Below are positions 5,493 to 41,201 of a stretch of DNA of 46,576 bases, piece by piece (position 1 is the first letter of the stretch; each line of letters opens with the position of its first letter). The translations under genes and the position numbers were made by a program. Source of the DNA: Lachnospiraceae bacterium. Its GTDB lineage: Bacteria; Bacillota; Clostridia; Lachnospirales; Lachnospiraceae. The notes beneath the pieces were generated by a model. That model was not told the origin of the DNA. It made no database searches and saw nothing but the letters and a program-made list of their open reading frames with translations. Where the stretch lies: the NCBI GenBank assembly GCA_017442585.1, contig JAFRZM010000019.1:1-46576 (forward strand). Direction: 5' to 3'.

Positions 5493-5685
5493 ATATTTAT
5501 AAAGTGCGTAAAATCGCTTGCATTGTGCGTATTTATCAATTATTATCGAACCATGCAGAGAAAATATTCACATTTAAGACAAATTATTTATAAAAGCTTA
5601 TAATTGTTTTTATTTTCGAAATTATTTGTTTTATTTGAGTTTGTTGATATAAACTTCGTTTCATGGTTTAATAAATGCAATTAAA

Positions 5686-5715
5686 TTGACTATACAATAT
5701 TAGAATTTGTAGAAA
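5686..5715 (+). promoter_or_regulatory. Possible promoter of the MoxR operon
   Basis: The 284-bp AT-rich gap between the exporter and the first DUF58 gene has no other feature that I can support and no clear terminator for the exporter operon. TTGACT at 5686-5691 with TAGAAA at 5710-5715 (18 bp apart) is the best promoter match. Confidence 0.3.
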
Positions 5716-5776
5716 ATATTCAAATATTACCTTTTAACCAAATGGAGAAAGGTTTAGCAGGAAGAAGATACGGGTT

Positions 5777-6853: not shown

Positions 6854-8174
6854 TGTCATATTTTTTAAAGTGGCGGCGGAACTTGCGTTATATTACTCGC
6901 TATTTGCGGTAACTCCGACACTTTTGGGACTTTCATTACCACCGTTTATAATGATAGGGCTTTTGTCACTTGCAATGCTTACGGCATCGTTTTTAAAGTC
7001 AAAGCAAAAAAGAGAGTTGCGGTATTTGGGCCTTATCTTCGTGGTTATAGCCTTTTTCCTATCACTTAATACCTTTACGGATCTGTTTTCGGTCATACCG
7101 CCGTGCCTTTATGTGACGTACATAATACATAAAGGAAATTTCGATCTTGATCCATTGGATGTAAAGAAGGAATTCAGGATCTCGCTTATTGGCGCAGGCA
7201 TACTGTTTTTCGTACTTCTGGTAATGGACTGGTTTTCGGAAATGGGATTGCAGGAGCTTTTACCTACTATAGCCGAAAAGCGAATCAACCTTATAGTTCC
7301 GGAAGAAATGATAAAGTACCTTCTGTTATTTATAGTAATGATGGCACTCGCTGTAAGGCAGGTTAGATACGACAGCGATTATTATAAGGGATATAACCTT
7401 ATGCAGTGGATTGAAGCGGGAGTAATACTTGTCCCTGCGGTAATCACGATAGTACTTATCGTAAACTTCGGACCGCCGTTACTTACGAAAGGCGCAAACG
7501 CACTCGGTGAAGTGATATCCGAGATAAGGTTTGAGCGGGACAGCGACACTTACTTTGAGTGGAAGCGCTGGACAGGAAGGCAGAACGACATCTCCCGTAA
7601 GGAGCTCGACGAAGTTAATAAAGAGCAACAGGGAAAAGAGGATAACGGAGAGGTTTGGCATTATGACGGTCATGCGGATAAGGATGTAGATAGTCACTTT
7701 GGACCGGAGAATTTGGAGATTATCTGGCCATATATGGATATCTTATCTAACCCGTTACTGCTATTCGGAATCTTTATCGGAATTGTTTTAATCGTAGTCG
7801 CGATAGCACTTATACGAAGCACGAGGCGGCTTACATTTAAAAAGCGAATTAAAACAACTTATAATATCCGCGATGTAAGAGCCGATGACGATTTCAAGAA
7901 AAAGAACAAGGTCAAAGTTTTCTCGAATCGTGCAAGAGTAAGGCGTGTGTATTGTGACTTCCTGGATATAATAAGAAAGAACGGCATCACACTTAATAAC
8001 CGGATGACATCCGAAGAAGTCTATGAAAAGATAAGGACGGTCTTTGATGATGAATCGGCGAAGGCATTAAGAAACGTCTATATAAAGGCAAGATACGACG
8101 ATTTCTCGGATGTAACCAATGATGAAGTAAGAGATGCGAAGCAAGCTCTTAACGGAATAAAGAAACTAAGTTAA
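6846..8174 (+). CDS. Multi-pass membrane protein with C-terminal DUF4129 domain
   Basis: The start is a TTG with a strong AGGAGG site at 6831-6836; it overlaps the end of the DUF58 gene by 8 bp. The 442-residue protein has about five hydrophobic segments in the first 220 residues, a charged extracellular-type loop (residues about 225-290), one more membrane segment (LLLFGIFIGIVLIVVAIALI) and a C-terminal DUF4129 region (VRRVYCDFLDIIRKNG, TSEEVYEKIR, ALRNVYIKARYDDFSD). In related operons this domain follows a transglutaminase core; none is seen here. It has two paralogues downstream in the same operon (10233-11447 and 11506-12705). Confidence 0.75.
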   Translation: MFSVIFFKVAAELALYYSLFAVTPTLLGLSLPPFIMIGLLSLAMLTASFLKSKQKRELRYLGLIFVVIAFFLSLNTFTDLFSVIPPCLYVTYIIHKGNFDLDPLDVKKEFRISLIGAGILFFVLLVMDWFSEMGLQELLPTIAEKRINLIVPEEMIKYLLLFIVMMALAVRQVRYDSDYYKGYNLMQWIEAGVILVPAVITIVLIVNFGPPLLTKGANALGEVISEIRFERDSDTYFEWKRWTGRQNDISRKELDEVNKEQQGKEDNGEVWHYDGHADKDVDSHFGPENLEIIWPYMDILSNPLLLFGIFIGIVLIVVAIALIRSTRRLTFKKRIKTTYNIRDVRADDDFKKKNKVKVFSNRARVRRVYCDFLDIIRKNGITLNNRMTSEEVYEKIRTVFDDESAKALRNVYIKARYDDFSDVTNDEVRDAKQALNGIKKLS

Positions 8175-13049: not shown

Positions 13050-13733
13050 ATGGTGATTAATGACAAAAGAATCCGTATCATAACAGGATATTATGGAAGC
13101 GGCAAGACAGAATTTGCCGTAAATTACGCATATAAGCTGGCTAAAGTTGTAAAACGACCATGCATCGCGGATCTTGATATCGTAAATGTATATTTCAGAT
13201 CCCGTGAAAAGACCAAAGAGATGGAGGAGGCAGGAATTGAAGTCATCTCTTCGTCAGTAGTGGAAGACAACTGCGACATGCCGGCGTTATCAAGTAAGAT
13301 TACAGTACCGTTCCTTGATAAGTCCTATGATTACATAATGGACCTTGGCGGAAGCGAAGTCGGTGCGAAAGTCCTCGGAAGATTCGGAGATTTAATAGAT
13401 AAAAACGAAGTGGATTTCTTTATGGTGGTTAATCTTTTCAGACCTGAAACGGGTAATGAAGATGAGATAATTCACCAGATGAGATTGTTGGAAGATATGT
13501 CGGGCTTTAAGATCACAGGCCTTGTTAATAATTCTAATCTTATCCATGAAACGAGAGTCGAAGATATCCTCGAAGGAGAGGCTTACCTGAAACGGGTAAG
13601 CGACAAAACAATGATCCCTATACGCTATACAACATGTATGGTGGATGAAGTGCGCAATCACGAAGCACTTATAGATAAAGTGCATGGAGAGCTTTTTCCT
13701 ATGCATTACAACATGAGAAGTATATGGATGTAA
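13050..13733 (+). CDS. P-loop NTPase of the vor operon
   Basis: 227 residues. ATG at 13050 or GTG at 13053 are the plausible starts (AAAGG just upstream); an alternative TTG at 13011 lies in a likely promoter and was not used. Walker A is GYYGSGKT at residues 13-20. DLDIVNVYFRSRE and MDLGGSEVG recall the deviant nucleotide-binding fold of CobQ/MinD/ParA proteins. It is immediately followed by the ferredoxin and the three subunits of a 2-oxoacid:ferredoxin oxidoreductase, within one transcription unit. A role in assembly, cofactor loading or regulation of that enzyme is inferred; no function is established. Confidence 0.7.
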   Translation: MVINDKRIRIITGYYGSGKTEFAVNYAYKLAKVVKRPCIADLDIVNVYFRSREKTKEMEEAGIEVISSSVVEDNCDMPALSSKITVPFLDKSYDYIMDLGGSEVGAKVLGRFGDLIDKNEVDFFMVVNLFRPETGNEDEIIHQMRLLEDMSGFKITGLVNNSNLIHETRVEDILEGEAYLKRVSDKTMIPIRYTTCMVDEVRNHEALIDKVHGELFPMHYNMRSIWM

Positions 13734-13744
13734 GGAGGCAAATG

Positions 13745-13963
13745 ATGGGTAAATTTCATTTAACTATCAGGGAAGACCGTTGCAAGGGCTGCGAACTTTG
13801 CGTGTCAGTATGTCCTAAGGGCGTACTTGTAATCAACAAAGAAAAGCCAAATGCAGCAGGATATTTCCCGGCAAGCGTTGCAAACGAAGGCGAATGCGTC
13901 GGATGTACAAGCTGCGTAAAGATGTGCCCGGATGTGGCAATCAGGATTGAAAAAGAAGATTAA
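13745..13963 (+). CDS. 2-oxoacid:ferredoxin oxidoreductase, ferredoxin-type delta subunit
   Basis: 72 residues when started at MGKFHLTI. AGGAGG at 13733-13738 lies 6 nt before this ATG; the adjacent ATG at 13742 is only 3 nt from it. Two 4Fe-4S motifs are complete: CKGCELCVSVCPKG (C13, C16, C19, C23) and CVGCTSCVKMCPD (C51, C54, C57, C61). It would carry electrons from the thiamine-dependent enzyme encoded by the next three genes to free ferredoxin. The site overlaps the end of the upstream ATPase gene, so the genes are co-transcribed. Cytoplasmic. Known as VorD or KorD in related operons. Confidence 0.9.
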   Translation: MGKFHLTIREDRCKGCELCVSVCPKGVLVINKEKPNAAGYFPASVANEGECVGCTSCVKMCPDVAIRIEKED

Positions 13964-13981
13964 GGAGGTAAGATAGTTACT

Positions 13982-15034
13982 ATGGCTAAAGTTTTATTAA
14001 AAGGAAATGAAGCCGTTGTTCGCGCTGCTATCGAAGCCGGTTGTAAATACTTCTTCGGCTATCCGATTACACCACAGAACGAAATACCGGAATATTTTTC
14101 CAAAGAGTTACCAAAGATAGGAGGAGCCTTCGTACAGGGCGAGTCTGAAGTTGCATCAATTAATATGCTTTACGGTGCAGCTGCAGCAGGTGCTAGAGCG
14201 ATGACATCATCATCATCACCAGGAATCGCGCTTATGCAGGAAGGTATTGGATATATAAGCAAGGCAGAATTGCCTGCAGTTATTGTTAACATGATGCGTG
14301 GAGGCCCTGGTCTTGGTGGTATCCAGCCATCACAGTCAGACTACCACATGTGCGTTAAGGGCGGTGCTAACGGTGATTATCATAACATCGTTCTCGCTCC
14401 TGGTAATGTACAGGAATTAGTTGACATGGTACAGGAAGCATTTGATATTGCAGATCAGTACGGCATGCTCGTAATCGTACTCGCAGATGGTCTTATCGGT
14501 CAGATGATGGAGCCGGTTGAGTTAAGAAAGCCGAAGGCACGTCCAATCGAGCCTAAGACATGGGCATTAACAGGTCCTAACGGTGGCAAGCCACACAGAA
14601 TCTACAACTTAAAGCTTCAGGCACCTGATCTTGAGCAGGATAATATCGACCTCTTTAAGAAGTATGAAGTAATAGAGAAGAATGAAACACGCTACGAAGA
14701 CTATATGATGGATGATGCAGAATTTGCATTCGCTTCCTATGGTACAGCAAGCCGTGTTGTTCGTACAGCAGTTGATAAATTACGCGCTGAAGGATATAAG
14801 ATCGGTTTAATCCGTCCTCAGACACTTTGGCCATTCCCTTACGAAGCATTCAAGCGTCCTAACATCAAGAAGTATTTAGACGTTGAATTAAGTATGGGTC
14901 AGATGATCGATGATGTTGCCATCGCTTGCGGTGACAAGAACATGATCGAGTTCTTCGGCCATACAGGTGGTGTACTTATCACTGTTGATGAAGTATGCGA
15001 CTTTGCTAAGAAAATCATGGGAGGTGCAAAATAA
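13982..15034 (+). CDS. vorB: 2-oxoacid:ferredoxin oxidoreductase, alpha subunit (VorB type)
   Basis: 350 residues. KYFFGYPITPQNEIPEYF at the N-terminus, GESEVASINMLYGAAAAGAR and TSSSSPGIALMQEGIGY are typical of the pyrimidine-binding half of 2-oxoacid:ferredoxin oxidoreductases. It is usually annotated as the VorB subunit of 3-methyl-2-oxobutanoate dehydrogenase, which decarboxylates branched-chain 2-oxoacids to acyl-CoA. A KorA assignment (2-oxoglutarate) is the alternative; substrate cannot be told from the sequence alone. AAGGAGG lies upstream. The stop and the next start overlap (TAATG). Confidence 0.9.
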   Translation: MAKVLLKGNEAVVRAAIEAGCKYFFGYPITPQNEIPEYFSKELPKIGGAFVQGESEVASINMLYGAAAAGARAMTSSSSPGIALMQEGIGYISKAELPAVIVNMMRGGPGLGGIQPSQSDYHMCVKGGANGDYHNIVLAPGNVQELVDMVQEAFDIADQYGMLVIVLADGLIGQMMEPVELRKPKARPIEPKTWALTGPNGGKPHRIYNLKLQAPDLEQDNIDLFKKYEVIEKNETRYEDYMMDDAEFAFASYGTASRVVRTAVDKLRAEGYKIGLIRPQTLWPFPYEAFKRPNIKKYLDVELSMGQMIDDVAIACGDKNMIEFFGHTGGVLITVDEVCDFAKKIMGGAK

Positions 15035-15783
15035 TGTCAGTAGTATTTGAACGTTCAAAAGGTCTTGTAGACGTTAAGACACATTATTGCCCTGGATGCT
15101 CTCATGGTATCGTACATCGTATCTTAGCTGAGAGTTTGGAAGAAATGGGCTTACTTGATGAAGCAATCTGTATGTCCCCTGTAGGATGCGCAGTTTTAGC
15201 TTTGGATTATTTTGAATTCGACGGAATTCAGGCAGCACACGGTCGTGCTCCGGCTACAGCAACAGGTATCAAGAGAGTACATCCTGATAAGACAGTTATC
15301 ACATATCAGGGTGACGGAGACCTTGCTTCAATCGGTATGTGCGAGATCATCCATGCTGCAGCACGTGGTGAGAAGATTACAACAATCTTCATCAACAACG
15401 GTATCTATGGTATGACAGGTGGACAGATGGCACCTACAACATTACCTGGTATGAAGGCTACAACAGCACAGCTCGGACGTGATGTAAGCTTAAACGGTTA
15501 CCCAATCAGAGTAGCAGAGCTTATCTCAACACTTGACGGTGCTAAGTATGTAGAGCGTGTAGCTGTATGCTCACCTGCAGAAGTTAACAAGGCAAAAGCA
15601 GCTATTAAGAAAGCTCTCGAAGTTCAGAAGGCAGGATTAGGATTCTCATTCGTAGAAGTTCTTTGCGCATGTCCTACAAACTGGGGCAAGACACCTGTTG
15701 ACGCATTAGACTTCGTTAAGAATGAAATGATTCCGTATTATCCGCTTGGAGTTAAGAAAGATACCACAAAGGAGGGACAGTAA
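15034..15783 (+). CDS. 2-oxoacid:ferredoxin oxidoreductase, beta subunit (thiamine diphosphate-binding)
   Basis: 249 residues. The thiamine diphosphate site is visible as GDGDLASIG with NNGIYGMTGGQ about 30 residues later. HYCPGCSHG near the N-terminus and PVGCAVL supply cysteines of the type that hold a 4Fe-4S cluster in this subunit. It pairs with the alpha subunit upstream and the gamma subunit downstream. It is translationally coupled to alpha. The product would be acyl-CoA, CO2 and reduced ferredoxin, serving fermentation of amino acids or synthesis in the reverse direction. Confidence 0.92.
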   Translation: MSVVFERSKGLVDVKTHYCPGCSHGIVHRILAESLEEMGLLDEAICMSPVGCAVLALDYFEFDGIQAAHGRAPATATGIKRVHPDKTVITYQGDGDLASIGMCEIIHAAARGEKITTIFINNGIYGMTGGQMAPTTLPGMKATTAQLGRDVSLNGYPIRVAELISTLDGAKYVERVAVCSPAEVNKAKAAIKKALEVQKAGLGFSFVEVLCACPTNWGKTPVDALDFVKNEMIPYYPLGVKKDTTKEGQ

Positions 15784-15785
15784 AC

Positions 15786-16343
15786 ATGAGCAGAATTGAT
15801 CGTATTTTCTGTGCCGGATTCGGTGGACAGGGTGTTATGAGTATGGGTCAGTTATTGGCTTATGCAGCAATGCTCGAGGAATTGGAAGTTACATGGTGCC
15901 CGTCATACGGCCCTGAAATGCGTGGAGGCGAAGCTAACTGTTCAGTTACTATCTCTGATGAGAGAATCGGTTCTCCACTTATCAATAATGATGCAACTGT
16001 TGGTGTATTCATGAACGGTGCAGCATACAACAAATTTAAGAATAAAGTTCAGCCGGGCGGAAAGATCTTCATGAACTCAGATCTCATCGAAGATTCTAAC
16101 CCTAGAACAGATGTTACATATTACAAGATTCCTGTAAACTCTATCGCTACACGTCTTGGCAAGATTCAGCTTGCTAACATGGTAATGCTTGGAGCTTTAA
16201 ACGATCAGGCACATCTTGTTAACCAGGATATGCTTCTTGAAGCATTCAAGAAGGTATTCGGAGCTGCTAAGGAAAAGTACATTCCGATCAACAAGGAAGC
16301 TCTTGCAGAAGGTGCTAAGGCAGCAGCAGAGATGTTCAAATAG
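15786..16343 (+). CDS. 2-oxoacid:ferredoxin oxidoreductase, gamma subunit
   Basis: 185 residues with FCAGFGGQGVMSMGQLLA at the start and SYGPEMRGGEANCSVTISD, both typical of the gamma subunit. It starts 2 nt after the beta stop and is the last gene of the operon; a strong hairpin terminator follows at 16416. The order ATPase-ferredoxin-alpha-beta-gamma is a complete four-subunit enzyme plus a companion NTPase. Confidence 0.92.
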   Translation: MSRIDRIFCAGFGGQGVMSMGQLLAYAAMLEELEVTWCPSYGPEMRGGEANCSVTISDERIGSPLINNDATVGVFMNGAAYNKFKNKVQPGGKIFMNSDLIEDSNPRTDVTYYKIPVNSIATRLGKIQLANMVMLGALNDQAHLVNQDMLLEAFKKVFGAAKEKYIPINKEALAEGAKAAAEMFK

Positions 16344-17927: not shown

Positions 17928-18097
17928 TGTTAACAAGGCCGAAAAGTTGTAAAGTAATCGTGCTTGCACGAATTAGTTTACAACCTTGAGGACTGTTCAG
18001 AAATAAGGAAGTAGCAATCTGCGTAGCAGATTTGCGAATTCCGCATTTCTGTAGAATTGCGGGAGTTGCGAAGCAACGTAGCAATTCGTGTTAACAC
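17928..18097 (+). other. Hairpin-rich intergenic region after glnA
   Basis: No gene. Three stem-loops follow one another: an 18-bp imperfect stem at 17946-17984, GCAATCTGC/GCAGATTTGC around GTA at 18014-18035, and a two-step stem at 18054-18087 (GAATTGC, then GTTGC, loop GAA). TGTTAACA stands at 17928-17935 and the 10-bp palindrome GTGTTAACAC at 18088-18097. None has a T tract. A structured RNA, a repeat remnant or a 3' processing region are possible. Confidence 0.5.
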
Positions 18098-31446: not shown

Positions 31447-31535
31447 ATTTGTAACGGAAAGTACGAAAAAACTTAAGAATTTAACGGATTTACGCTGTTG
31501 CTTTTAGCATATAAAGGTGTTAGAATGGAGATTGT

Positions 31536-31625
31536 CAGAGTAGGAATAGGCGCGTCAAGTGTCAATGGATGGGAAGTAGCCATTGAACGAAGGATTATCC
31601 GCGGTGCCTAGTCCGCATTCCACTG
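31536..31625 (+). promoter_or_regulatory. Tetrahydrofolate (THF) riboswitch
   Basis: The folT-type conserved core is recognisable: GGCGCGTCAAGTG, GGGAAGTAGCC, ACGAAGGA and CCGCGGTGCC. Stems fit: GGAAT/ATTCC (31543-31547 with 31617-31621), TAGGC/GCCTA (31547-31551 with 31606-31610) and TCAATGG/CCATTGA (31562-31568 with 31580-31586). It lies upstream of a folate-type ECF gene. A downstream switch region (31624-31663) offers two exclusive stems near the ribosome-binding site. Confidence 0.88.
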
Positions 31626-31680
31626 CCACATAAGACTCAAAGCTTCTTACGTGGCAAGCCACGAAAGGAGTTTTTTTATA

Positions 31681-32220
31681 ATGAAAAAGGTTAATGTGCG
31701 CATGATCGCTATGTGCGGCATGCTGATCGCACTCTATTTCGTCTTGGGACGATTAGGGTACATGTTGGACTTCCAGGCTGTTAAGGTCTCGTTTGAAGGA
31801 TTGCCTGTACTTATCGGAGGTTTGTTATTTGGACCGGGCGCAGGTATTGCAATCGGTGGTATAGGATCGTTTCTTACACAGGTTCTGGGTCCTTACGGTT
31901 TAACAGTTACAACACCGATTTGGATGGCACCGTATATTGTTTCAGGTTTATTTGCAGGAGTTTTTGCTTTAGTTAAGAAGTACAATTTCAAGCTTCGTGA
32001 TTACTGGATAGAAATAGCAATATATCAGGTTATTATAACAGCGATAAATACACTTGGACTTTACGTTGCGAGCCATATTGAAGGATGGTATCATCCGACA
32101 TTAATTACAGGTAACCTTTTGGTAAGACTTGTTATTATGGTGGTAATCATCGTAGTATACGGACTTATTGTACCGCCGTTACTTAAAGTAATTAAGAAGA
32201 TAGACCGAGTTAATGAATAA
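31681..32220 (+). CDS. folT: Folate-type ECF transporter S component
   Basis: 179 residues from the ATG with AAAGGAG upstream. About five hydrophobic segments. FEGLPVLIGGLLFGPGAG near residue 45 is the typical S-component signature in the folate family. With shared ECF ATPases and the T component, which lie elsewhere, it would take up folate. The THF riboswitch upstream supports folate as the substrate. An alternative, uptake of another pterin, is possible. Confidence 0.85.
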   Translation: MKKVNVRMIAMCGMLIALYFVLGRLGYMLDFQAVKVSFEGLPVLIGGLLFGPGAGIAIGGIGSFLTQVLGPYGLTVTTPIWMAPYIVSGLFAGVFALVKKYNFKLRDYWIEIAIYQVIITAINTLGLYVASHIEGWYHPTLITGNLLVRLVIMVVIIVVYGLIVPPLLKVIKKIDRVNE

Positions 32221-32268
32221 TATATTATATATAAATATATAACGGGAAACATGGGGGTGTATAGGATT

Positions 32269-33393
32269 ATGAAGATGAAGAAAGCATTGGCTCTTATTTT
32301 GAGCATGGCGCTTTTATCAAGTTGCCTTACTGCGTGTGATAAGAGCGCGCCTAAAGAGAATAGCACAAAGAAAGCGCCCGCGTACTCATTGAATGAGGAA
32401 TATAGCCTGGATTCGATGGTTACGGTAAAAGGCGAGACTGTATCGTTGGAAGAAGAGGCAGAAGCCTATACAACAGATAAGGAAAAAGGATATGCCTTCC
32501 GTGTACCTCAAAGCTGGCACGAAATTGACGGACTTAATCCTGTGGATGTGGATGAGTATTCTATAGAAATAGATTACATTCCGGTTGCAGGAATGAATAA
32601 ATATTACGAGGCAATGGATGACGAAGGAAACGTTGATGATGCAATCATTGCGGAAGTTCTCGGAATGTCTGTCCCGATGCTTGGAATATATAGGTATGAT
32701 GATGAAGCTGCCGATAAGGACAAGCTTAATTCATCATTTGAAGCATTTAAAGAGATGTTCGCCAATGTGGAAGAACTTGGTTCTGTCGAGAATAGCACAT
32801 TTTACTTCCTTTATAACGACAAAATCGATAGAACTGATATGGACGAACAGGATAACGAATGGCTTGATAGTATCATCGCGGATTATAACGCCGTTCGTGA
32901 TTCCCTGTGTCTCTTCCCGCCGATAACACCTAAGGAGGAGTTTAAGGCAGACTTAAGCTCTTTTACCTGCGAAGATCTTGACGGTAATGCGATAGACGAA
33001 ACATTTTTTAGTAATTATGATGTTACAATGATAAATTGCTGGACCACATGGTGCGGCTATTGTATCGAAGAAATGCCTGAAATCGGTAGATTAAAAGATA
33101 TACTGCCGGATAACTATAATGTCGTAACCATTTGCTTCGATGCCGATACACAGGGAGATCTTGCGAAAGAGTTACTTGAGCAGGCCGGAGCAAGAAATGT
33201 TACAACATTTGTTGTAAACGATATCTTAGAGGAAATTGTTGGTTCACAGCTTATCGGTTTCCCGACGACGTTTTTCGTAGATAAGAATGGTCACGTAATA
33301 GGTTCGCTTGAAATTGGCGCACCGACAAGTGACGGTTCGCTGGCAGAAGCATACCTTGAACTTATAAAGAAGGCTGCTTCAGAGATAGAATAA
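32269..33393 (+). CDS. TlpA-like thiol-disulfide lipoprotein
   Basis: 374 residues from MKMKKALALIL, which has GGGGGTG just upstream; the longer frame from 32251 was not used. Lipobox LTAC (Cys23) anchors it outside the membrane. The N-terminal half is unknown (residues 30-230). The C-terminal part is a thioredoxin fold with WCGYC (C262, C265) and IGFPTTFFVDKNG carrying the cis-proline. It would act on thiols or disulfides outside the cell. It is followed by a small CXXC protein and a membrane polyferredoxin, which suggests an electron-transfer relay. Confidence 0.85.
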   Translation: MKMKKALALILSMALLSSCLTACDKSAPKENSTKKAPAYSLNEEYSLDSMVTVKGETVSLEEEAEAYTTDKEKGYAFRVPQSWHEIDGLNPVDVDEYSIEIDYIPVAGMNKYYEAMDDEGNVDDAIIAEVLGMSVPMLGIYRYDDEAADKDKLNSSFEAFKEMFANVEELGSVENSTFYFLYNDKIDRTDMDEQDNEWLDSIIADYNAVRDSLCLFPPITPKEEFKADLSSFTCEDLDGNAIDETFFSNYDVTMINCWTTWCGYCIEEMPEIGRLKDILPDNYNVVTICFDADTQGDLAKELLEQAGARNVTTFVVNDILEEIVGSQLIGFPTTFFVDKNGHVIGSLEIGAPTSDGSLAEAYLELIKKAASEIE

Positions 33394-33405: not shown

Positions 33406-33570
33406 ATGGGCGTTATAAGTGCTTTAAAGACAAAATATATATGGCCTGTGCGTATCGCGGTTCTTGTGGCCGCCGTAATCCTTATATTTATTGGGGTTAT
33501 GAATGGTGACGCTAAAGAAGTTATGCAAAAGGCAGTTAATATCTGCCTTCAGTGCATAGGAATAGGATAA
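33406..33570 (+). CDS. CD1871A-type small CXXC membrane protein
   Basis: 54 residues. One membrane segment (IAVLVAAVILIFIGVM) and the C-terminal NICLQCIGIG with C47 and C50. This matches the CD1871A family of CXXC proteins, which stand beside TlpA-like and 4Fe-4S proteins in Clostridia. It has AAAGGT upstream, lies 12 nt after the TlpA gene and 5 nt before the polyferredoxin gene, so the three are translated from one message. Probably carries electrons or a thiol pair between them. It is short enough to be missed by default gene finders. Confidence 0.75.
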   Translation: MGVISALKTKYIWPVRIAVLVAAVILIFIGVMNGDAKEVMQKAVNICLQCIGIG

Positions 33571-33575
33571 AGCGT

Positions 33576-34418
33576 ATGAAATTAAAGAATGAAACCAAAC
33601 GTAATTTCATACAGTTCCTTTTTACCTGCCTATTTAATGGATATGCGGTGGGATTTGCCAAAGGTGCAATCTTTAAAGGCGTGACCAAAGGTATATGCGT
33701 TCCGGTGCTTAATTGCTATTCGTGTCCGGGAGCACTTGGCGCTTGTCCTATAGGTTCGATGCAGACACTCCTTGCAAAAAGGGGAGGACGTTTAAGCGTA
33801 TACGTTCTTGGAATGGTAATGCTTTTCGGCGTAATCCTGGGACGTGTGGTTTGCGGGTTTATGTGCCCGTTCGGACTTTTACAGGATTTATTATACAAGA
33901 TCCCGTGTTTTAAATACACAAAGCACGGTAAGGCAGATAAAGTATTGCGTAGTCTTAAATACGTGGTGCTGTTCCTTCTTGTAATAATCCTTCCGGCATT
34001 TGTAAGAAACAAATACGGGATGGGTGAGACCTTCTTTTGTAAATACCTTTGCCCTGCGGGAACTATAGGCGCAGGTCTTCCGTTATTACTAAAGGTGGAA
34101 GCATTACGAACTACAGTGGGAACGCTTTTCTATTATAAATTGAGTATTGCGATAGTGATAGTTTTATTATCAGTCGTGATCTACAGACCGTTTTGTAAGT
34201 ACTTATGCCCACTCGGCGCGATTTACGGCGGATTCAATAACGTAGCATTTGTAAGACTTAAAGTAAATGAGGACAAATGCGTATCCTGTAAAGCCTGCGA
34301 AAGCGCATGTGATATGGGAGTAGATATATTAACAAACATTAATTCCACAGAGTGTATTCGCTGCGGAAAATGTATAGATACGTGTAAGCAAGGCGCAATT
34401 ACACGCACATTTAAATAA
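33576..34418 (+). CDS. Membrane polyferredoxin (NapH/CcoG-like 4Fe-4S protein)
   Basis: 280 residues from MKLKNETKRNFIQ; the ATG lies 5 nt after the CXXC gene stop. Membrane segments alternate with cysteine motifs: NCYSCPGALGACP, VVCGFMCPFG, FCKYLCPAG, and FCKYLCPLG. Two soluble 4Fe-4S motifs close the protein: CVSCKACESACDMG and CIRCGKCIDTCKQG. Such proteins move electrons between the cytoplasm and membrane partners. With TlpA and CD1871A, a reductive pathway to extracytoplasmic thiols is likely. A weak hairpin follows, 100 nt before the TM1266 gene. Confidence 0.85.
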   Translation: MKLKNETKRNFIQFLFTCLFNGYAVGFAKGAIFKGVTKGICVPVLNCYSCPGALGACPIGSMQTLLAKRGGRLSVYVLGMVMLFGVILGRVVCGFMCPFGLLQDLLYKIPCFKYTKHGKADKVLRSLKYVVLFLLVIILPAFVRNKYGMGETFFCKYLCPAGTIGAGLPLLLKVEALRTTVGTLFYYKLSIAIVIVLLSVVIYRPFCKYLCPLGAIYGGFNNVAFVRLKVNEDKCVSCKACESACDMGVDILTNINSTECIRCGKCIDTCKQGAITRTFK

Positions 34419-34517: not shown

Positions 34518-34793
34518 ATGGAAACCAGAGTAGCAAGCATTTCGATCATAGTCGAAAACCCGGACTCCGTGGAAAACTTAAATAAGATCTTACACGAAGG
34601 CGGAAAGTACATCATTGGTCGAATGGGAATCCCATATAGGGAAAAGAACGTCAGTATCATTTCTGTGGCAATCGATGCGCCGCAGGATGTCATTAATTCA
34701 ATGTCAGGAAGCATAGGGCGACTTAATGGCGTGCAGTCCAAGGTTATTTACTCAAATGTAATAACCAAAGACGAAACGTGCGATAAGGAGTAA
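34518..34793 (+). CDS. TM1266-type putative regulator
   Basis: 91 residues. ISIIVENPDSVENLNKILHE, IIGRMGIPYREKNVSIIS and VDAPQDVINSMSGSIGRLNG-like sequence match the TM1266 family, named as iron-only hydrogenase system regulators with a NikR/ACT-like fold. No helix-turn-helix is present. Here it stands before a metal-chelate transporter and nitrogenase-like enzyme; no hydrogenase genes are in the window. It may sense a metal, a cofactor or the redox state for these genes. AAAGGAA precedes the ATG. Confidence 0.8.
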   Translation: METRVASISIIVENPDSVENLNKILHEGGKYIIGRMGIPYREKNVSIISVAIDAPQDVINSMSGSIGRLNGVQSKVIYSNVITKDETCDKE

Positions 34794-34832: not shown

Positions 34833-35849
34833 ATGCAGATGACAAGTAATATAACTGTTAAAAGGCGCGTATTTCGTGCCGTAATTCTAATCATTACCCC
34901 GATAATCATATCATTTCTCGCATTGGCGATAGGAAGAATCGAAATTCCTGTCGGCGATGTTTTCAACATACTTATAGGCCGTACGGAAGGAATCGCCAAC
35001 GTATCTGTTATGACGGTTAAAATCTTCCGTCTTCCTCGCATTATCCTGGCGCTCTTGGTGGGTGCGGGACTTTCCGTTGCGGGATGTGCGTTTCAAGGGT
35101 TATTTGCAAACCCATTAGCAACCCCTGATACTCTAGGCGTTGCAAGTGGTGCAAGCTTTGGTGCGGCGTTAGCGATCTTACTTGGTGCGGGACCTGTAAC
35201 AATTCAGGTATGTTCATTTTTAATGGGAATAGCCGCAGTCGTTCTGACCGTACTTTGCGGAAGAACAGGCGGCAGAAACATGACCATGATAATACTTTCC
35301 GGCATCATGATAGGTTCGCTTTTTTCCGCGCTTATATCGTTTGTAAAATTCGTTGCGGATTCGGAGTCACAGCTTCCGGCAATTACCTATTGGCTTATGG
35401 GATCCTTGGCGTCAACCGATTCCAAGTCACTTCTTATCGGTGCACCGCCTATTTTAATCGGAATAATAATACTTTTTATAATACGTTGGAGGATGAACCT
35501 TTTACCTCTTACAGAAGATGAAATCAAGTCGTCCGGTACAAATGTGCTTTTACTTCGTGGCATCACTGTGTTATCCGCCACGATGATAACGGCGTCTGCA
35601 GTATCAATGTGCGGACAGGTCGGTTGGGTAGGTTTGCTCGTGCCACATATGGTTAGAATGCGTGTCGGCGCGAACTTTAAAGATGTAGTGGCATGTTCTA
35701 TTTCAGTCGGTGCGGTATTCCTTGTAATCGTAGATACGGTAGCACGTTCTTTAACCGCTGCAGAAATCCCGATATCGATATTAACCGCGATAATCGGTGC
35801 GCCGTTCTTTATATACTTAATGCGCAGAAGAGGAGGTTTTGTGGGATGA
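34833..35849 (+). CDS. FecCD/BtuC-type permease for a metal chelate
   Basis: 338 residues with about nine or ten membrane segments. LPRIILALLVGAGLSVAGCAFQGLFANPLATPDTLGV is split here as LVGAGLSVAGCAFQG and NPLATPDTLGV, the family signature. GWVGLLVPHMVRM and GAVFLVIVDTVARSL are further family parts. Such permeases import siderophores, haem or cobalamin. It overlaps the next ATPase gene by 4 bp and the substrate-binding protein is at 40023. AAGGAG lies upstream. Confidence 0.92.
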   Translation: MQMTSNITVKRRVFRAVILIITPIIISFLALAIGRIEIPVGDVFNILIGRTEGIANVSVMTVKIFRLPRIILALLVGAGLSVAGCAFQGLFANPLATPDTLGVASGASFGAALAILLGAGPVTIQVCSFLMGIAAVVLTVLCGRTGGRNMTMIILSGIMIGSLFSALISFVKFVADSESQLPAITYWLMGSLASTDSKSLLIGAPPILIGIIILFIIRWRMNLLPLTEDEIKSSGTNVLLLRGITVLSATMITASAVSMCGQVGWVGLLVPHMVRMRVGANFKDVVACSISVGAVFLVIVDTVARSLTAAEIPISILTAIIGAPFFIYLMRRRGGFVG

Positions 35850-36634
35850 TTTTAAAAGCAGAAAACTTAACCTTCGCATATAAGGGTGGAAACAATGTAT
35901 TTGAGGACGTAAGTTTAACTGTTGAAAACGGTGATGTACTCGCAATCTTAGGTCCTAACGGAGCAGGTAAAACCACTCTTTTAAAAAGTATCTTGGGAAT
36001 CTTACCGGTAAAGAGCGGTAGCGTTACGTTAGATAACGTGGATGTAAGAAAGATACCTGAGAAGGAACTTTTTAAGAGAATATCATATGTTCCGCAGGCT
36101 AAAAACACAACAGCAAGTTATTCGGTACTTGATACGGTTTTAATCGGTCTTGCAGCAGAGCTTTCCGTATTTAAAGCACCGGGCGAAAAAGAAATTGCCC
36201 GTGCCAAGGAAGTCCTGGACGAATTAAATATAGGGCATTTAATAGATAAGCGTTGCAACAGGATTTCGGGCGGCGAGCTTCAGATGGTATTAATTGCAAG
36301 GGCTTTAATCTCAGATCCTGAGATTTTAATCTTGGACGAGCCTGAATCAAACCTTGATTTTAAGAACCAGCTTATTGTACTTGATACATTAACGAGGCTT
36401 TCAAAACGAGGCATTGCATGTATATTTAATACGCATTATCCGTCACATGCTTTGCAGCGTGCGAATAAGGCAGCGATACTTTCAAATCATCATGTCCTTT
36501 TCGGAGAGACGGAAAAGACCGTTACGGAAGAACGAATCGAAGAAGCCTTTGGCGTAAAGGCCGTAGTTGATGAATTGGAATTTGAAGATAAAAAAATAAA
36601 ATCGGTTATTCCGATAGAGTTGATAAACAGATAG
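35846..36634 (+). CDS. ABC ATPase for metal-chelate uptake
   Basis: 262 residues from MILKAENLTFAYKGG, with AGGAGG upstream; the longer frame from 35693 lies inside the permease gene. Walker A GPNGAGKTT, Q-loop YVPQAKN, signature ISGGELQM, Walker B LILDEPESNLD and H-loop NTHYPSHA. It energises the FecCD permease with which it overlaps by ATGA. Together with the binding protein downstream this is a complete importer wrapped around the three nitrogenase-like genes. Confidence 0.92.
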   Translation: MILKAENLTFAYKGGNNVFEDVSLTVENGDVLAILGPNGAGKTTLLKSILGILPVKSGSVTLDNVDVRKIPEKELFKRISYVPQAKNTTASYSVLDTVLIGLAAELSVFKAPGEKEIARAKEVLDELNIGHLIDKRCNRISGGELQMVLIARALISDPEILILDEPESNLDFKNQLIVLDTLTRLSKRGIACIFNTHYPSHALQRANKAAILSNHHVLFGETEKTVTEERIEEAFGVKAVVDELEFEDKKIKSVIPIELINR

Positions 36635-36709
36635 AAGTAAGAAGTAGAGTGACGTCCGTGAGAGTTTTACTTATGCGGTGCGAATGAATGAGTAAAAAGA
36701 GGTGCGACT

Positions 36710-37450
36710 ATGATTAAGATAGCAGTATACGGAAAAGGCGGAATAGGAAAGTCGACGACAGTTTCTAATGTCGCAGCAGCCTTATCAAAGCAGGGACTTA
36801 AAGTTATGCAGATAGGATGCGACCCGAAAGCTGATTCGACTATCACTTTAAGAGCAGGCAAAGAGTTAAAGACAGTTCTTGATTTAGAACGCGCAGGCGC
36901 TCCTTACACCTTGGATGATATGGTGCTTGAAGGCTTTAATGGTGTCATTTGCGTAGAGGCGGGTGGTCCGACACCGGGACTTGGATGCGCGGGACGAGGC
37001 ATCATCGCTGCGTTAGAAAAGCTCGAGGAAAAAAGGGCTTACGAGAAGTTTAAGCCTGACGTTATTTTATATGATGTCTTGGGAGATGTTGTATGTGGCG
37101 GCTTCTCGATGCCGATGAGAGCAGGCTACGCCGATAAGGTATATATCGTAACGTCCGGTGAAAATATGGCGGTATATGCTGCAGCAAATATAGCTATGGC
37201 AGTAGAGAATTTCAAAGACAGAGGTTACGCGAGCCTCGGCGGCATCATACTTAATAAGAGAGATGTCGAAGAAGAAGAGTCAAGAGTAGAGACCTTAGCT
37301 AAAGACTTTAAGACAGAGATTACAGGAATCTTACCACATTCAGAATATGTACCGAAAGCGGAAAAGATGGGTAAGACAGTAATTGAGGCATTCCCGGAGT
37401 CAAGTATGGCGAAAGCGTATGCGGAGCTTGCAAAGGCTCTTATAAAGTAG
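36710..37450 (+). CDS. NifH-like Fe protein (nitrogenase-like reductase, ATPase component)
   Basis: 246 residues, slightly shorter than NifH (about 270-290). Walker [10 protein letters not shown] at residues 8-16, CDPKADST, the bridging 4Fe-4S ligands C93 in GLGCAGRGI and C129 in [13 protein letters not shown], and R96 at the place of the NifH ADP-ribosylated arginine. As a homodimer it would pass electrons with ATP hydrolysis to the two partner proteins encoded next. The same fold serves nitrogenase, chlorophyllide reductase, CfbC in F430 synthesis and methylthio-alkane reductase. AGAGGTG precedes the ATG. Confidence 0.9.
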
Positions 37451-37460
37451 GAGGAAATAT

Positions 37461-38816
37461 ATGCTTAAAAAAATAGGCGATGTATTTGATGATAAGAATC
37501 TTGATAAAGCATATGTAAGAATAAAAGACAGCAGTTTCCCGACACCTTTCCCGGGAGGAGTAGAATTTAGCGCTCCTGTCCGCGGTGTTTGGAATATCGT
37601 GCATGTAGGAATGCTTATGCCTGAAGCACACGAAGTATTTGTCTGCGGTGGATGTTGCTTACGTGGTGTAGTATTAACTGCGGCCGAGATGAATGCGACG
37701 GACAGATTTTCAACCGTTACCGTAGAAGAGAAGAATCTCTTTGACGGTACATTGGAAGACCTGATAGTAGACGGTGTAACGGATTGCATCGCTAAGCTTC
37801 CGGACAAGCCTAAGGTAATACAGGTATACACAAACTGTATCCATCATTTTGCGGGAATAGATTTTGACAATGTATACGAGCGTTTGGAAAAGAAGAATCC
37901 TGACAGAAAGTTTATGCGTTGCTTCATGAATCCGATAATGAGAAAATCGGGACTTGCGCCGGATCCGTTAATGAGAAAGCAACTCTTTTCCCTACTTGAA
38001 AAGCCAACGGAAAAGGACGGGAAGTTATTTGCGGTAATCGGAAACGATTATCCGATAAATAAGGACTCGGAGCTACGAGAGATAGTAAACGCTGCGGGAT
38101 ATAAGTATATCGAGATACAGGATTGCAATACTTATGAAGAATATCAGGAAATAGCAAAGGCGAGTACGTTTCTTACAACATATCTTCCGGCAGTGCCTGC
38201 AGGTGAATCTTGTGCGATGCGTTTGGGCGGAAAGCATATCTATAAGCCGATAGCTTTTGACTACGATGAAATTAGAGAAACATTGGATGCAATCGCAGAT
38301 GAGATATGCGCACCGCATATAGATCACGAAAGCAAGATTGCGGAGTGCGAGAAGTTACTTTCGGATGCGAAAGATATAATCAAAGAAATGCCTATTGCAA
38401 TTGATTATACATTTGCGCCTCGACCGCTTTCACTTGCTTACCTTTTGCTTACGCATGGATTTAAAGTAGAATGTGTCTTTGCGGACAGCTTTTCAAAGGA
38501 AGAAGAGAAAGCATACGATGCATTATGTGAGGAATATCCGGATCTTTTAATCTATGCGACATCGCGTTATGAGATGCGCTATGTAAGAGAAAACGATAAG
38601 GATAAATACCTGGCGCTCGGACAAAAGGCAGCGTATTTCATGAATACAGATTATTTCGTAAACTTCGTAATCGGAAGCGGACACTTTGGATATGAGATAA
38701 TCCGGGCACTGTCGGTTGAAATGATAGATGCATATAAGAATAAAAAGAACGCGGATGAGATAATTTCCGTTAAGGGATGGGGGTGCGAAGAAGAATGCAG
38801 CAGACTTCAAGTGTAA
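37461..38816 (+). CDS. Nitrogenase component 1-like protein, first subunit
   Basis: 451 residues. It belongs to the NifD/NifK/BchN/CfbD superfamily by context and cysteine pattern: VFVCGGCCLRGVVLTAAEM (C62, C65, C66) and YTNCIHHFAGIDFD (C126) match two of three cluster-cysteine sites; at the first site the sequence is FSAPVRGVW without a cysteine. It follows the NifH-like gene by 10 nt with AGGAGG upstream and overlaps the next subunit gene. It is too divergent to call NifD. Likely forms a heterotetramer with the next protein and holds a 4Fe-4S or larger cluster, with substrate unknown. Confidence 0.8.
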   Translation: MLKKIGDVFDDKNLDKAYVRIKDSSFPTPFPGGVEFSAPVRGVWNIVHVGMLMPEAHEVFVCGGCCLRGVVLTAAEMNATDRFSTVTVEEKNLFDGTLEDLIVDGVTDCIAKLPDKPKVIQVYTNCIHHFAGIDFDNVYERLEKKNPDRKFMRCFMNPIMRKSGLAPDPLMRKQLFSLLEKPTEKDGKLFAVIGNDYPINKDSELREIVNAAGYKYIEIQDCNTYEEYQEIAKASTFLTTYLPAVPAGESCAMRLGGKHIYKPIAFDYDEIRETLDAIADEICAPHIDHESKIAECEKLLSDAKDIIKEMPIAIDYTFAPRPLSLAYLLLTHGFKVECVFADSFSKEEEKAYDALCEEYPDLLIYATSRYEMRYVRENDKDKYLALGQKAAYFMNTDYFVNFVIGSGHFGYEIIRALSVEMIDAYKNKKNADEIISVKGWGCEEECSRLQV

Positions 38817-39949
38817 TATCAACATATTCTGCGGATACTTTCGGCGTATGCTCCATGCTTTACGAGCTTGGCGGCATGGTAGTTATGCACGACGCATCGG
38901 GTTGTAACTCGACATATTCGACGCACGATGAACCACGCTGGAATAAAATAAGAAGTAACATCTTCGTATCTGCCGTAACCCAGATGGAAGCTTTAATGGG
39001 AGATGAGGAAAAATTTATAACCGATGTGATTGCGGCAGCGAAAGACTTAAACCCTAAGTTTATCGCAATCTGCGGCACACCGATCCCTACTATGGTAGGT
39101 TTTGACTTTGAAGCGGTTGCGCGAGTTATAGAAGCGCGTACCAGCATCCCTTCTATCGGAGTTGCGTCAACCGGTATGAAATCATACGTAGACGGCGCAA
39201 GTAAGGCGCTTTTGAAAATCGTTAAGCGTATAGTCTCTGCAAGAAACGTAAGCAGAGAGACATTGGAAAAGTCAGCATCTAAAGAAAGCGATGCGGCAAA
39301 ACGAGTATCCGTCCTTGGCGTAACACCTTTAGACTTTTCGATTAACGGACAGGATAAGAGTATAACTTCGTTTCTTGAAAGTAAGGGATACGATGTACTC
39401 GGCAATTTCTGTATGGATGTAGAGTTATCGGATATCGGCAATATCACTTCTTCTGATGAGACGCTTGTGGTGTCTGCCATCGGATATGAAGCTGCGAAAT
39501 TTTTAAAAGAGGAATATGATATTCCTTACGAAATCGGTCTTCCGATAAACGGAGTATTGCATAAGAAGATAACGAATGATATCACATCCGATAAAAGAAT
39601 CGCCATACTCGGAGAAGGCGTGACTTCGTATTCTATCGCATTAAGTATTATAAATACTCTCGGGGTAAAAACAGTCCCGATAGTTACTGTGGATATAGCA
39701 AAAGACCTTCTTGACAGGATGAATACGGTTACGGAAACGAAGCACTTAATCTACGAAGATGATATTAAAGAAGAACTTAAAAACTACGATATCGTAATCG
39801 CAGATCCGTTATTCCGTCCGATTGTGGGAAAAGATAAAGCTTTTATCAATCTTCCGACGGAATGTTTCTCGGGAAGAATTTACAGGAAAGATATTCCTGA
39901 TATAGTCGCTACATCTTTCATAGAAGATGCGGTGAAAAAGTATTTATAA
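38795..39949 (+). CDS. Nitrogenase component 1-like protein, second subunit
   Basis: 384 residues from MQQTSSVISTYSAD. The start at 38795 was preferred because GGGGGTG lies 8 nt upstream; a start at 38777 adds six residues. All three cluster-type cysteines are in place: C19 in FGVCSMLYELGG, C37 in DASGCNSTYS (like GSQGC in NifK) and C93 in AICGTPIPTMVGFDFEAV (like the TTC...IGDD site). It overlaps the first subunit gene by 22 bp. At 384 residues it is much shorter than NifK. Shared cluster between the two subunits is inferred by homology. Confidence 0.8.
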   Translation: MQQTSSVISTYSADTFGVCSMLYELGGMVVMHDASGCNSTYSTHDEPRWNKIRSNIFVSAVTQMEALMGDEEKFITDVIAAAKDLNPKFIAICGTPIPTMVGFDFEAVARVIEARTSIPSIGVASTGMKSYVDGASKALLKIVKRIVSARNVSRETLEKSASKESDAAKRVSVLGVTPLDFSINGQDKSITSFLESKGYDVLGNFCMDVELSDIGNITSSDETLVVSAIGYEAAKFLKEEYDIPYEIGLPINGVLHKKITNDITSDKRIAILGEGVTSYSIALSIINTLGVKTVPIVTVDIAKDLLDRMNTVTETKHLIYEDDIKEELKNYDIVIADPLFRPIVGKDKAFINLPTECFSGRIYRKDIPDIVATSFIEDAVKKYL

Positions 39950-40022
39950 GTTCATAAGGCAGAATCGCGTTAATGCGCTTTTGCCTCAATGATAGATTTA
40001 ATATATAAAGGAGAATTTCAAA

Positions 40023-41201
40023 ATGAAAGCAAGAAAAATCTTAAGCTTGATGCTCGTTTTATGCATGGTACTTTCACTTACCTGTGCATGTGCAAAGAGC
40101 GAAACAACAAACACTAACGGAACAAATTCAAACACTGGTGACAACGCTGATAACGGCGACGCCGATACAGCAAAGACACATATTGTAACAGATCACCTTG
40201 GTGAAGAGGTAGAAGTACCTTATGAAATCAATCGTATCGTTGTATGCGGACTTTGGCCTATGCCATCCGTTATTACGGTATTCTTTGATTCTGCAGATAA
40301 GATTGTCGGAATTCCTGAAAGCTCTATGACGGCAGCAGCCAACGGTTTACTCGGAGAGCTTTATCCTGAGATTTTAAACGCATCTACAGAGTACGCTAAG
40401 GGTAACGATATCAACATGGAAGAGTTACTTAAGCTTAATCCTGACCTTGTAATCTATAATACGACAACACCTGAATTACATGAAGCATTTAAGAATGCAG
40501 GCATCCCTGCAGTAGCATTTTCCGTAAACAAGTGGAACTATGATGCAATCGAGACATTAAAGCAGTGGATAGCGCTCCTTTCAGAGCTTTTCCCTGAAAA
40601 TGACAAGGTAGATGTTGTAAATAATAAGTCAGAGGAAATCAAAAAGTTCGTAGCAGACAGAGTTGCCGATATTCCGGAAGACGAAAGAAGACAGGCCTTC
40701 TTCTTATTTAACTATAACGACAACGCAGTTATCACATCGGGATGCAGCTTCTTTGGACAGTTCTGGGCTGATGCAATCGGCGCTAAAAACGTTGCGGAAG
40801 AAATTACAACAGATAACTCCGTTCCTGTAAACATGGAGCAGATCTATGCATGGGATCCGGACCTTATCTTTATCACAAACTTTAACACAGCAACGCCTGA
40901 AGACTTATACGACAACAAGCTTGGCGTATTTGATTTCACATCAACCAAGGCTGTAAAGAATAAGCAGGTATTCAAGATGCCGCTTGGTATGTACAGATCT
41001 TTCACACCGGGCGTAGATACACCACTTACACTTCTTTACCTTGCAAAGTGCGCATATCCTGAGAAGTTTGCAGATATCGACATGATCGAGGAAACAATCA
41101 AGTACTACAAAGAAGTATTCGGCGTAGAATTAACCAAAGAGCAGGCAGAGTCAATCTTTGATCCATCAAGTGACGCCGCTGCGGTATATCTTAATAAATA
41201 G
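40023..41201 (+). CDS. Metal-chelate ABC transporter, substrate-binding lipoprotein
   Basis: 392 residues. Signal MKARKILSLMLVLCMVLSL with a lipobox ending at Cys23 (TCAC; Cys21 is a second candidate). A TNTNGTNSNTGDNADNG linker follows. VTDHLGEEVEVPYEINRIVV and LLKLNPDLVIYNTTTP are typical of FhuD/BtuF-like proteins (periplasmic binding fold with one long helix). It would deliver a siderophore, haem or corrinoid to the permease encoded upstream. An AAAGGAG site precedes it and an imperfect stem-loop (39955-39990) lies between it and the nitrogenase-like genes. Confidence 0.88.
   Translation: MKARKILSLMLVLCMVLSLTCACAKSETTNTNGTNSNTGDNADNGDADTAKTHIVTDHLGEEVEVPYEINRIVVCGLWPMPSVITVFFDSADKIVGIPESSMTAAANGLLGELYPEILNASTEYAKGNDINMEELLKLNPDLVIYNTTTPELHEAFKNAGIPAVAFSVNKWNYDAIETLKQWIALLSELFPENDKVDVVNNKSEEIKKFVADRVADIPEDERRQAFFLFNYNDNAVITSGCSFFGQFWADAIGAKNVAEEITTDNSVPVNMEQIYAWDPDLIFITNFNTATPEDLYDNKLGVFDFTSTKAVKNKQVFKMPLGMYRSFTPGVDTPLTLLYLAKCAYPEKFADIDMIEETIKYYKEVFGVELTKEQAESIFDPSSDAAAVYLNK

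Follow-up and report, generated by a model that had tools for sequence, protein, structure and literature searches.

The operon and its nitrogenase-like proteins

The operon described here lies on contig JAFRZM010000019.1 of a Lachnospiraceae bacterium (genome G000); the whole contig of 46,576 nt is the window of this analysis, and the genomes and loci compared with it are numbered Gxxx and Lxxx. Six genes with intact frames follow each other on the + strand between 34833 and 41201. The first two encode a FecCD-type importer permease (34833..35849; PF01032, 271 bits) and an importer ABC ATPase (35846..36634; PF00005, 119 bits) whose start overlaps the permease stop (ATGA). They are followed by a NifH-like ATP-dependent reductase (36710..37450; PF00142, 293 bits, cut-off 25), a NifD/E-like subunit (37461..38816; PF00148, 31.3 bits, cut-off 28.6) and a NifK/N-like subunit (38777..39949; PF00148, 80.7 bits, cut-off 28.6), the last two with frames overlapping by 40 bases, and by a probable lipoprotein (40023..41201; PF01497, 82 bits), the periplasmic substrate-binding protein (SBP) of the importer. 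The nitrogenase-like (NFL) proteins of the window are named NflH1, NflD1 and NflK1 (H1, D1, K1), and those of a second NFL found in relatives NflH2, NflD2 and NflK2 (H2, D2, K2). This gene set, its order and its short gaps and overlaps had been proposed in the initial annotation and agree with the open reading frames and Pfam families, as does the claim that C93, C129 and the Walker A motif GKGGIGKST of NflH1 are all intact.

Two upstream genes on the same strand were not part of that annotation. Directly before the operon lies a gene for a TM1266-like putative regulator (34518..34793; TIGR03959, 107.4 bits, cut-off 60.8; PF21699), of a family named by NCBI for the iron-only hydrogenase system, and before it one for a NapH-like membrane polyferredoxin with 4Fe-4S motifs (33552..34418; Fer4_5, 72 bits), a possible electron donor. 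Comparison covered 20 stretches from relatives and 78 named GTDB loci, the latter from the best 80 of at least 523 NflD1 matches; the regulator was identified in 64 of the named loci and a gene similar to the polyferredoxin in two. The order from polyferredoxin to K is repeated in congener G004 (locus L038) at 61-81% identity (polyferredoxin 61%), the contig ending inside K. Since this order recurs, and since the neighbours of NflD1 recur in 78 further loci (H1 in 78, K1 in 77, SBP in 61, ATPase in 59 and FecCD in 56), the operon is not a chance grouping.

All three NFL proteins score above the gathering cut-offs of PF00142 (H) or PF00148 (D and K) and belong to the nitrogenase superfamily, outside every functional family with a curated model. 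For the Mo, V and Fe nitrogenases (Nif/Vnf/Anf), NflH1 reaches 321 bits against the NifH cut-off of 394 and NflK1 28 against 654 for nifD. For CfbCD, the F430 reductive cyclase, the values are 322 against 402 (NflH1 to CfbC) and 22.5 against 268 (NflK1), and for DPOR/COR 198 against 345 and 160 against 331 (NflH1 to BchL and BchX) and 27.7 against 490 (NflK1 to BchB). For NflD1, NCBIfam gave no match with an E value of 0.01 or better. A FeMo-type dinitrogenase had been considered unlikely from the start, and nif cofactor genes elsewhere in the genome had been named as a check; NifB was searched in G000 and its best match reaches 27 bits against a cut-off of 344. The missing NifB and the scores below every Nif cut-off rule out a dinitrogenase and bear out that opinion.

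The closest solved proteins are in part those of methylthio-alkane reductase, an enzyme that depends on NifB-type machinery. The nearest solved chain of NflH1 is 9fmg_D (250 bits), which we take to be MarH, and the NflD1 profile matches 9d9u_A, presumably MarD, with E 2.6e-5, more weakly than NifE (E 4.8e-10). According to the passages of PMC12552129 used here, methylthio-alkane reductase holds a P-cluster and an [Fe8S9C] cluster, whereas G000 has no NifB and the K protein a single invariant cysteine, which speaks against assigning NFL to this enzyme.

A tree of the NifD homologues, covering types D1, D2 and D3 among themselves only, groups 79 D1 rows including the window (support 100) and 11 D2 rows (support 100), and its eight D3 rows are loose and do not form one group. 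Among 80 aligned D1 proteins, C62, C66 and C126 are present in 80/80, C154 in 78/80, C442 in 75/80 and C446 in 79/80, and C43 is present in all 78 aligned K1 proteins. NflD1 C126 aligns with a NifE cysteine and NflK1 C43 with a cysteine in the C-terminal half of 9i0g_A, presumably its NifN part. Because the invariant cysteines are these four (C62, C66 and C126 of D, C43 of K), NflD1K1 likely holds a single interface cluster, probably [4Fe-4S]. The near-invariant C154, C442 and C446, which are not so in seven aligned D3 proteins, may hold a metal fragment. NFL thus shares with DPOR (BchLNB), CfbCD, MarHDK and IsrHDK a NifH-type reductase with NifD/K-type subunits, but differs from them in scores below the curated cut-offs where a model exists, in the lack of NifB in G000 and in the limited set of invariant cysteines.

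Hydrogenase maturation genes and the fate of HydG

Two forms of D1 cluster were identified in the loci read. Type A, the form of the window, combines FecCD-ATPase and H1-D1-K1-SBP; TM1266 is often present too, as are HydE in front of H1 and HydF behind the SBP. Type B comprises H2-D2-K2-HypF-HypC-HypD-HypE with TM1266 and (H1)-D1-K1, and in some loci HydE and HydF adjoin it. The labels in these orders stand for similarity to reference proteins, mostly checked by NCBIfam or Pfam: HydE, HydF, HypF, HypD and HypE are above NCBIfam cut-offs, HypC, TM1266 and the NFL2 subunits above those of Pfam, and the HydG references were checked by TIGR03955. D3 clusters (seven read and one on a plasmid; L049-L055, L165) have the order H-D-K-SBP-FecCD-ATPase with no hydrogenase genes in the stretch; the plasmid one, on pTS1 of Treponema saccharophilum, is of the distant D3 type and was the sole match of a plasmid search with K.

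Several loci depart from these forms. In L046 a single cluster that also contains Hyp genes, HydF and HydE has two long frames, 4286-7111 (941 aa) and 13193-16042 (949 aa), which match D2/K2 and D1/K1 and probably are fusions of the D and K genes. D1K1 has no NifH-like gene of its own in L056 and L047, where it adjoins H2D2K2-Hyp, an arrangement suggestive of a reductase shared by the two NFLs. The order HydE-H1-D1-K1 in L134 is found on a contig filed as Synergistaceae, another phylum, through transfer or mis-binning.

HydE was identified in 35 of the 78 named D1 loci (in 34 directly before H1), HydF in 31, either of them in 48 and both in 18; the full order FecCD-ATPase-HydE-H1-D1-K1-SBP-HydF is present in 14. 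HydG was identified in none of the 78. In the HydG-bearing congener G006 (L076) the order is HydE-HydG-HydF, and comparison with FecCD-ATPase-HydE-NflHDK-SBP-HydF places the NFL genes where HydG would be expected.

The genome of the window itself shows the loss of HydG. This draft (1.70 Mb, 92% complete, 55 contigs) carries HydE (578 bits), HydF (514 bits) and their target HydA, a group A6 NADH-dependent [FeFe] hydrogenase (898 bits, cut-off 765), all on contigs other than the window, and no intact HydG. All that matches hydG there is a relic at C6:151-446, in pieces within about 300 bases, with a broken frame and large parts missing. Numbered by the HydG frame of congener G002 (479 residues, the first Met being residue 8), the relic retains an internal piece (304-365) 89% identical to that protein, a C-terminal piece (444-475) 72% identical and a start-like piece (8-18) with 8/11 residues identical, weak alone (E 0.84). 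The relic contig also carries a gene similar to a neighbour of the G006 hyd operon; the order is rearranged, and the gene may be a paralogue. G000 has a single match for the D protein of the window. In the NifH family it has one strong match (294 bits); a further one, at 43 bits, is probably a different P-loop protein.

Loss of HydG extends to most genomes with D1. Among the 78 named genomes, counted without completeness figures or a HydF test, HydG is below its cut-off in 72 and above it in six (4/50 and 2/28). In Faecalicatena contorta (L128), which has the NFL2-Hyp form, HydG also stays below the cut-off. A second sample comprises 74 genomes (40 NFL-positive and 34 negative) chosen from searches with the D protein of the window, the negatives not being a random draw, with four weak D matches (G183, G189, G194 and G409) left out; HydF is above its cut-off in 42 of them and HydG in 19. 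Among the 42 HydF-positive genomes HydG was identified in 1/22 with D1 and in 18/20 without (Fisher p 1.3e-8, a value weakened by the shared ancestry of the genomes). The two HydF-positive genomes without D1 and HydG are G158, whose sole NFL is of the distant D3 type, and G003, a genome of 69% completeness with a HydG end piece at a contig edge. On the best HydF tree, under our own pairing, HydG goes the opposite way to D1 in 7-8 of nine independent pairs and the same way in none. An assembly artefact is an unlikely cause of the absence, as G266 (one contig) and G303 (two contigs), 99-100% complete, have D1 and no HydG, and G000 has the relic.

A further 14 genomes (G005, G009, G014, G023, G025, G028, G100, G133, G178, G262, G276, G331, G335 and G354) have strong [FeFe] catalytic-domain matches (E <1e-88) with HydF below its cut-off, and seven of them carry a distant D3-type NFL. 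These genomes speak for an explanation in which NFL has a role in another cofactor, hydrogenases that lack HydG obtaining stray CO and cyanide or maturing by a different route, as does the activation of about 1% obtained in vitro with HydE and HydF alone, reported in the passages of PMC9431212 used here. Stray ligands seem insufficient, since HydG is retained in most HydF-positive genomes that lack D1 (18/20), and this explanation is considered very improbable.

The importer, its relatives and the Hyp genes

The nearest solved chains of the permease are HI1471 (2nq2_A, 236 bits), FhuB for ferric hydroxamate (184), two haem permeases (152 and 151) and BtuC (125); those of the SBP are 4ovk (146 bits) and HI_1472 (81 bits). 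HI1471 and HI_1472 (of HI1470-1472), which we take to be the molybdate importer MolBC-A, are the best characterised solved relatives of both proteins, and on these similarities hint at a small anion as the ligand. MolBC-A is named as a molybdate transporter in PMC4031551. An importer of molybdate, tungstate or another oxyanion whose metal NFL carries or needs, with the HydG-like role kept but no cyanide supplied by the importer, is a serious rival for the ligand, although rather unlikely: it leaves the exchange of importer and Hyp genes described below unexplained, no NifB is present for a large cluster, and the similarity to HI_1472 is modest, the best SBP match being 4ovk instead.

The initial annotation had suggested as possible substrate a compound such as a corrinoid, haem or siderophore, reduced after uptake. 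FecCD/PF01497 importers often carry chelates, and a chelate ligand is possible because FhuB, then the haem permeases and BtuC follow HI1471 among the permease matches. Scores are below the curated importer models (BtuC 194 against 461 bits, IsdE 42 against 299, SstD 42 against 450), a result still compatible with a chelate. A tetrapyrrole or corrinoid substrate finds no support among the neighbouring genes, and the importer family does not decide the matter. Reduction of an imported chelate for nutrition, the linkage to HydE and HydF being incidental co-regulation with iron or redox state, would agree with FhuB as second nearest permease and with the D3 clusters that pair NFL and importer in HydF-less genomes, one of them on the Treponema plasmid. 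It leaves the loss of HydG, the hydG relic, the presence of HydE and HydF in the cluster and the swap of importer for Hyp unexplained, and is judged quite unlikely. From the earlier proposal there remains the idea that the imported compound may feed the enzyme; the three named compounds lack support, the best characterised solved importer relatives being HI1471 and HI_1472, and in place of uptake and reduction the gene neighbourhood and the distribution of HydG point to assembly of the [FeFe]-hydrogenase cofactor.

Importer and Hyp genes replace each other around D1. Of 80 genomes searched for HypF (the 78 named ones plus G000 and G004), 11 score above its cut-off, and they coincide almost entirely with the genomes lacking an importer at the D1 locus; G000 has no HypF above the cut-off, and HypD has no match in G000, G001, G004 and G361, all of type A. 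Of the named loci, 64 have an importer and no HypF, 10 HypF and no importer, three, on short contigs, neither, and one both. Where at least 4 kb upstream and at least 3 kb downstream could be read, 46 loci show only the importer and six only Hyp, with none showing both or neither. The D1 tree comprises 76 clusters (79 rows less L133, L134 and L150, on contigs so short that an importer would be missed), with Hyp status taken from HypD for 13 order-level and own rows and from HypF for 63 named rows: 58 have only the importer, 18 only Hyp, and none both or neither. Each trait changes six times on this tree.

The Hyp genes are mostly joined to the second NFL. Of the 18 Hyp-only cases, 17 have pieces of NFL2 beside Hyp, and L057 shows none in the stretch read. 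Where the Hyp genes are separate from the D1 cluster, H2-D2-K2 was identified with HypF, whole or partial, in six of the eight HypF neighbourhoods read (L202-L207), the other two (L208 and L209) lacking NFL2 and resembling ordinary [NiFe] Hyp sets. Among 21 genomes with NFL-type Hyp the [NiFe] large subunit (PF00374) has no match in 15 and a match in six, the matches spanning only about 70 positions, so that divergent large subunits could escape; service to [NiFe] hydrogenases is rejected as a general reading of these genes. The Hyp sets of G473 and G484 likely do serve them; they lie beside genes resembling, by eye, HypB or parts of energy-converting hydrogenases, with no NFL2 in the stretch. 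In comparison with HypCDEF of [NiFe] Fe(CN)2CO assembly, the importer-less variants have true HypC, HypD, HypE and HypF adjoining a second NFL, mostly in genomes with no large-subunit match, and the type A genome G000 has no HypD match and HypF below its cut-off.

Proposed role of the NFL cluster

These comparisons point to a replacement of HydG in the making of the H-cluster by NflH1D1K1 together with one of two exchangeable supply modules, to which we assign a probability of roughly 0.8. Action of NFL1 at the HydG step is well supported by the comparison of genomes: its genes occupy the HydG position beside HydE and HydF, and most genomes that carry them have lost HydG. The importer most likely replaces a Hyp-type supply of ligands, since importer-less clusters belong to genomes with HypF or HypD and are mostly joined to a second NFL. 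NFL and HydG, a radical SAM tyrosine lyase, share a genomic place with HydE and HydF and are mostly exclusive in distribution, but belong to unrelated sequence families, NFL being of the ATP-driven two-component reductase type.

In the passages of the literature used here, HydG converts tyrosine into an Fe(CN)(CO)2 cysteine unit, HydE reduces and joins two of them, and HydF finishes and hands over the product; HypCDEF make Fe(CN)2CO, and the anaerobic source of its CO is described as an open question, reduction of CO2 requiring about -530 mV. Nitrogenase-type enzymes can deliver electrons of very low potential at the cost of ATP. Because they supply such electrons, a supply by NFL2-Hyp or by the importer, completed by NFL1, is proposed. 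In the variant with Hyp, HypF and HypE would make cyanide, HypC and HypD would carry an Fe(CN)2CO-like unit and NflH2D2K2 would supply low-potential electrons, perhaps forming CO. In the variant of the window, FecCD-ATPase-SBP would import an equivalent source of cyanide or cyano-iron, or a compound that makes the Hyp branch unnecessary. NflH1 would then drive NflD1K1 by ATP and the supply would be turned into the Fe(CO)2(CN) unit needed by HydE, the last chemical step being a guess; one ligand would have to be exchanged or reduced, since the ratio of cyanide to CO is 2:1 in the Hyp unit and 1:2 in the HydG unit. HydE, HydF and HydA would act as usual.

A more specific and doubtful version is that the importer scavenges a preformed cyano- or carbonyl-cyano-iron compound from the hydrogenase cofactors of other microbes, which NFL reworks into the H-cluster precursor, and that NFL2-HypCDEF makes the same unit from scratch and contains the anaerobic CO-forming enzyme that has long been sought. 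If true, this would amount to organometallic cross-feeding in gut and rumen.

Several observations weigh against the replacement of HydG by NFL and its supply modules. HydE and HydF are both out of view in 30 of the 78 named loci, in part because the contig ends there. Seven D1 genomes keep HydG (G361 and the six named ones, which include Intestinibacter bartlettii DSM 16795 and N19, a species with the importer form), so that the NFL system can coexist with it, and G158, HydF-positive and HydG-negative, has only the D3 type. HydG was called by TIGR03955, which a more divergent HydG would escape. Well-supported branches of the HydF tree leave only two independent pairs for D1 and HydG, with no significance, and supported branches of the D1 tree leave four for the importer and Hyp exchange; these all run in opposite directions, and with so few pairs the sign test gives 0.125 and could not reach 0.05. 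The importer was scored from a FecCD or SBP homologue within the stretch read, not genome-wide. Both importer and HypF are present in G484 (L144), with a Hyp set without NFL2 in the stretch; this sole exception is not among the 76 clusters because its D1 frame was not called. Finally, 12 of the 16 genomes with D3 clusters are without HydF (the D3 label of nine of the 16, like the D1 label where the cluster was not read, being based on identity to the D protein of the window), so that NFL with an importer is not always tied to work on the H-cluster.

Sequence composition of the window and an Rfam scan gave nothing bearing on the operon. Other features were, within 31534-32220, a THF riboswitch (80 bits) and behind it a gene for a small membrane protein resembling, by eye, the S component of an ECF folate transporter; at 32251-33393, upstream of the polyferredoxin, a gene whose product is probably a lipoprotein and contains a CGYC motif like that of thioredoxins; and a Clostridiales-1 RNA (17928-18096, 118 bits).

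Part of this association is already known. Dos Santos et al. 2012 (PMC3464626) reported two linked NifHEN-like copies in Coprococcus catus and Dorea longicatena, 'associated with hydrogenase maturation proteins' and with a possible role in metallocluster assembly; their cysteine pattern is similar to that of D1/K1. The passages of that paper used here do not mention loss of HydG, the HydE/HydF order or the importer/Hyp exchange, and 'hydrogenase' occurs once in the main text. In the passages of PMC9431212, five of eight species of clostridial acetogens possess HydE and HydF while known motifs reveal no HydG in them, a lack reported as unexplained in 2022, for which its authors propose an atypical HydG-like candidate. 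Passages of PMC11423573, PMC9147875, PMC10418091, PMC3226654, PMC12134894 and PMC12752695 were also drawn upon. Among the open-access PMC titles and abstract openings listed, a scope that leaves aside subscription journals and most preprints, neither a nitrogenase-like enzyme tied to HydG loss nor a hydG relic or importer/Hyp exchange was found.

Hydrogen from [FeFe] hydrogenases feeds the H2 economy of gut and rumen and hence methane formation. NFL is linked genetically to both maturation pathways, which makes questions on HydG-less maturation and on the source of CO testable, and its cluster may reveal the origin of the CO and cyanide of the H-cluster. A role in place of HydG, if true, would open a possible HydG-free route to laboratory hydrogenase production and would give a function to many unassigned nitrogenase-like genes, the relatives of NflD1 numbering at least 523.

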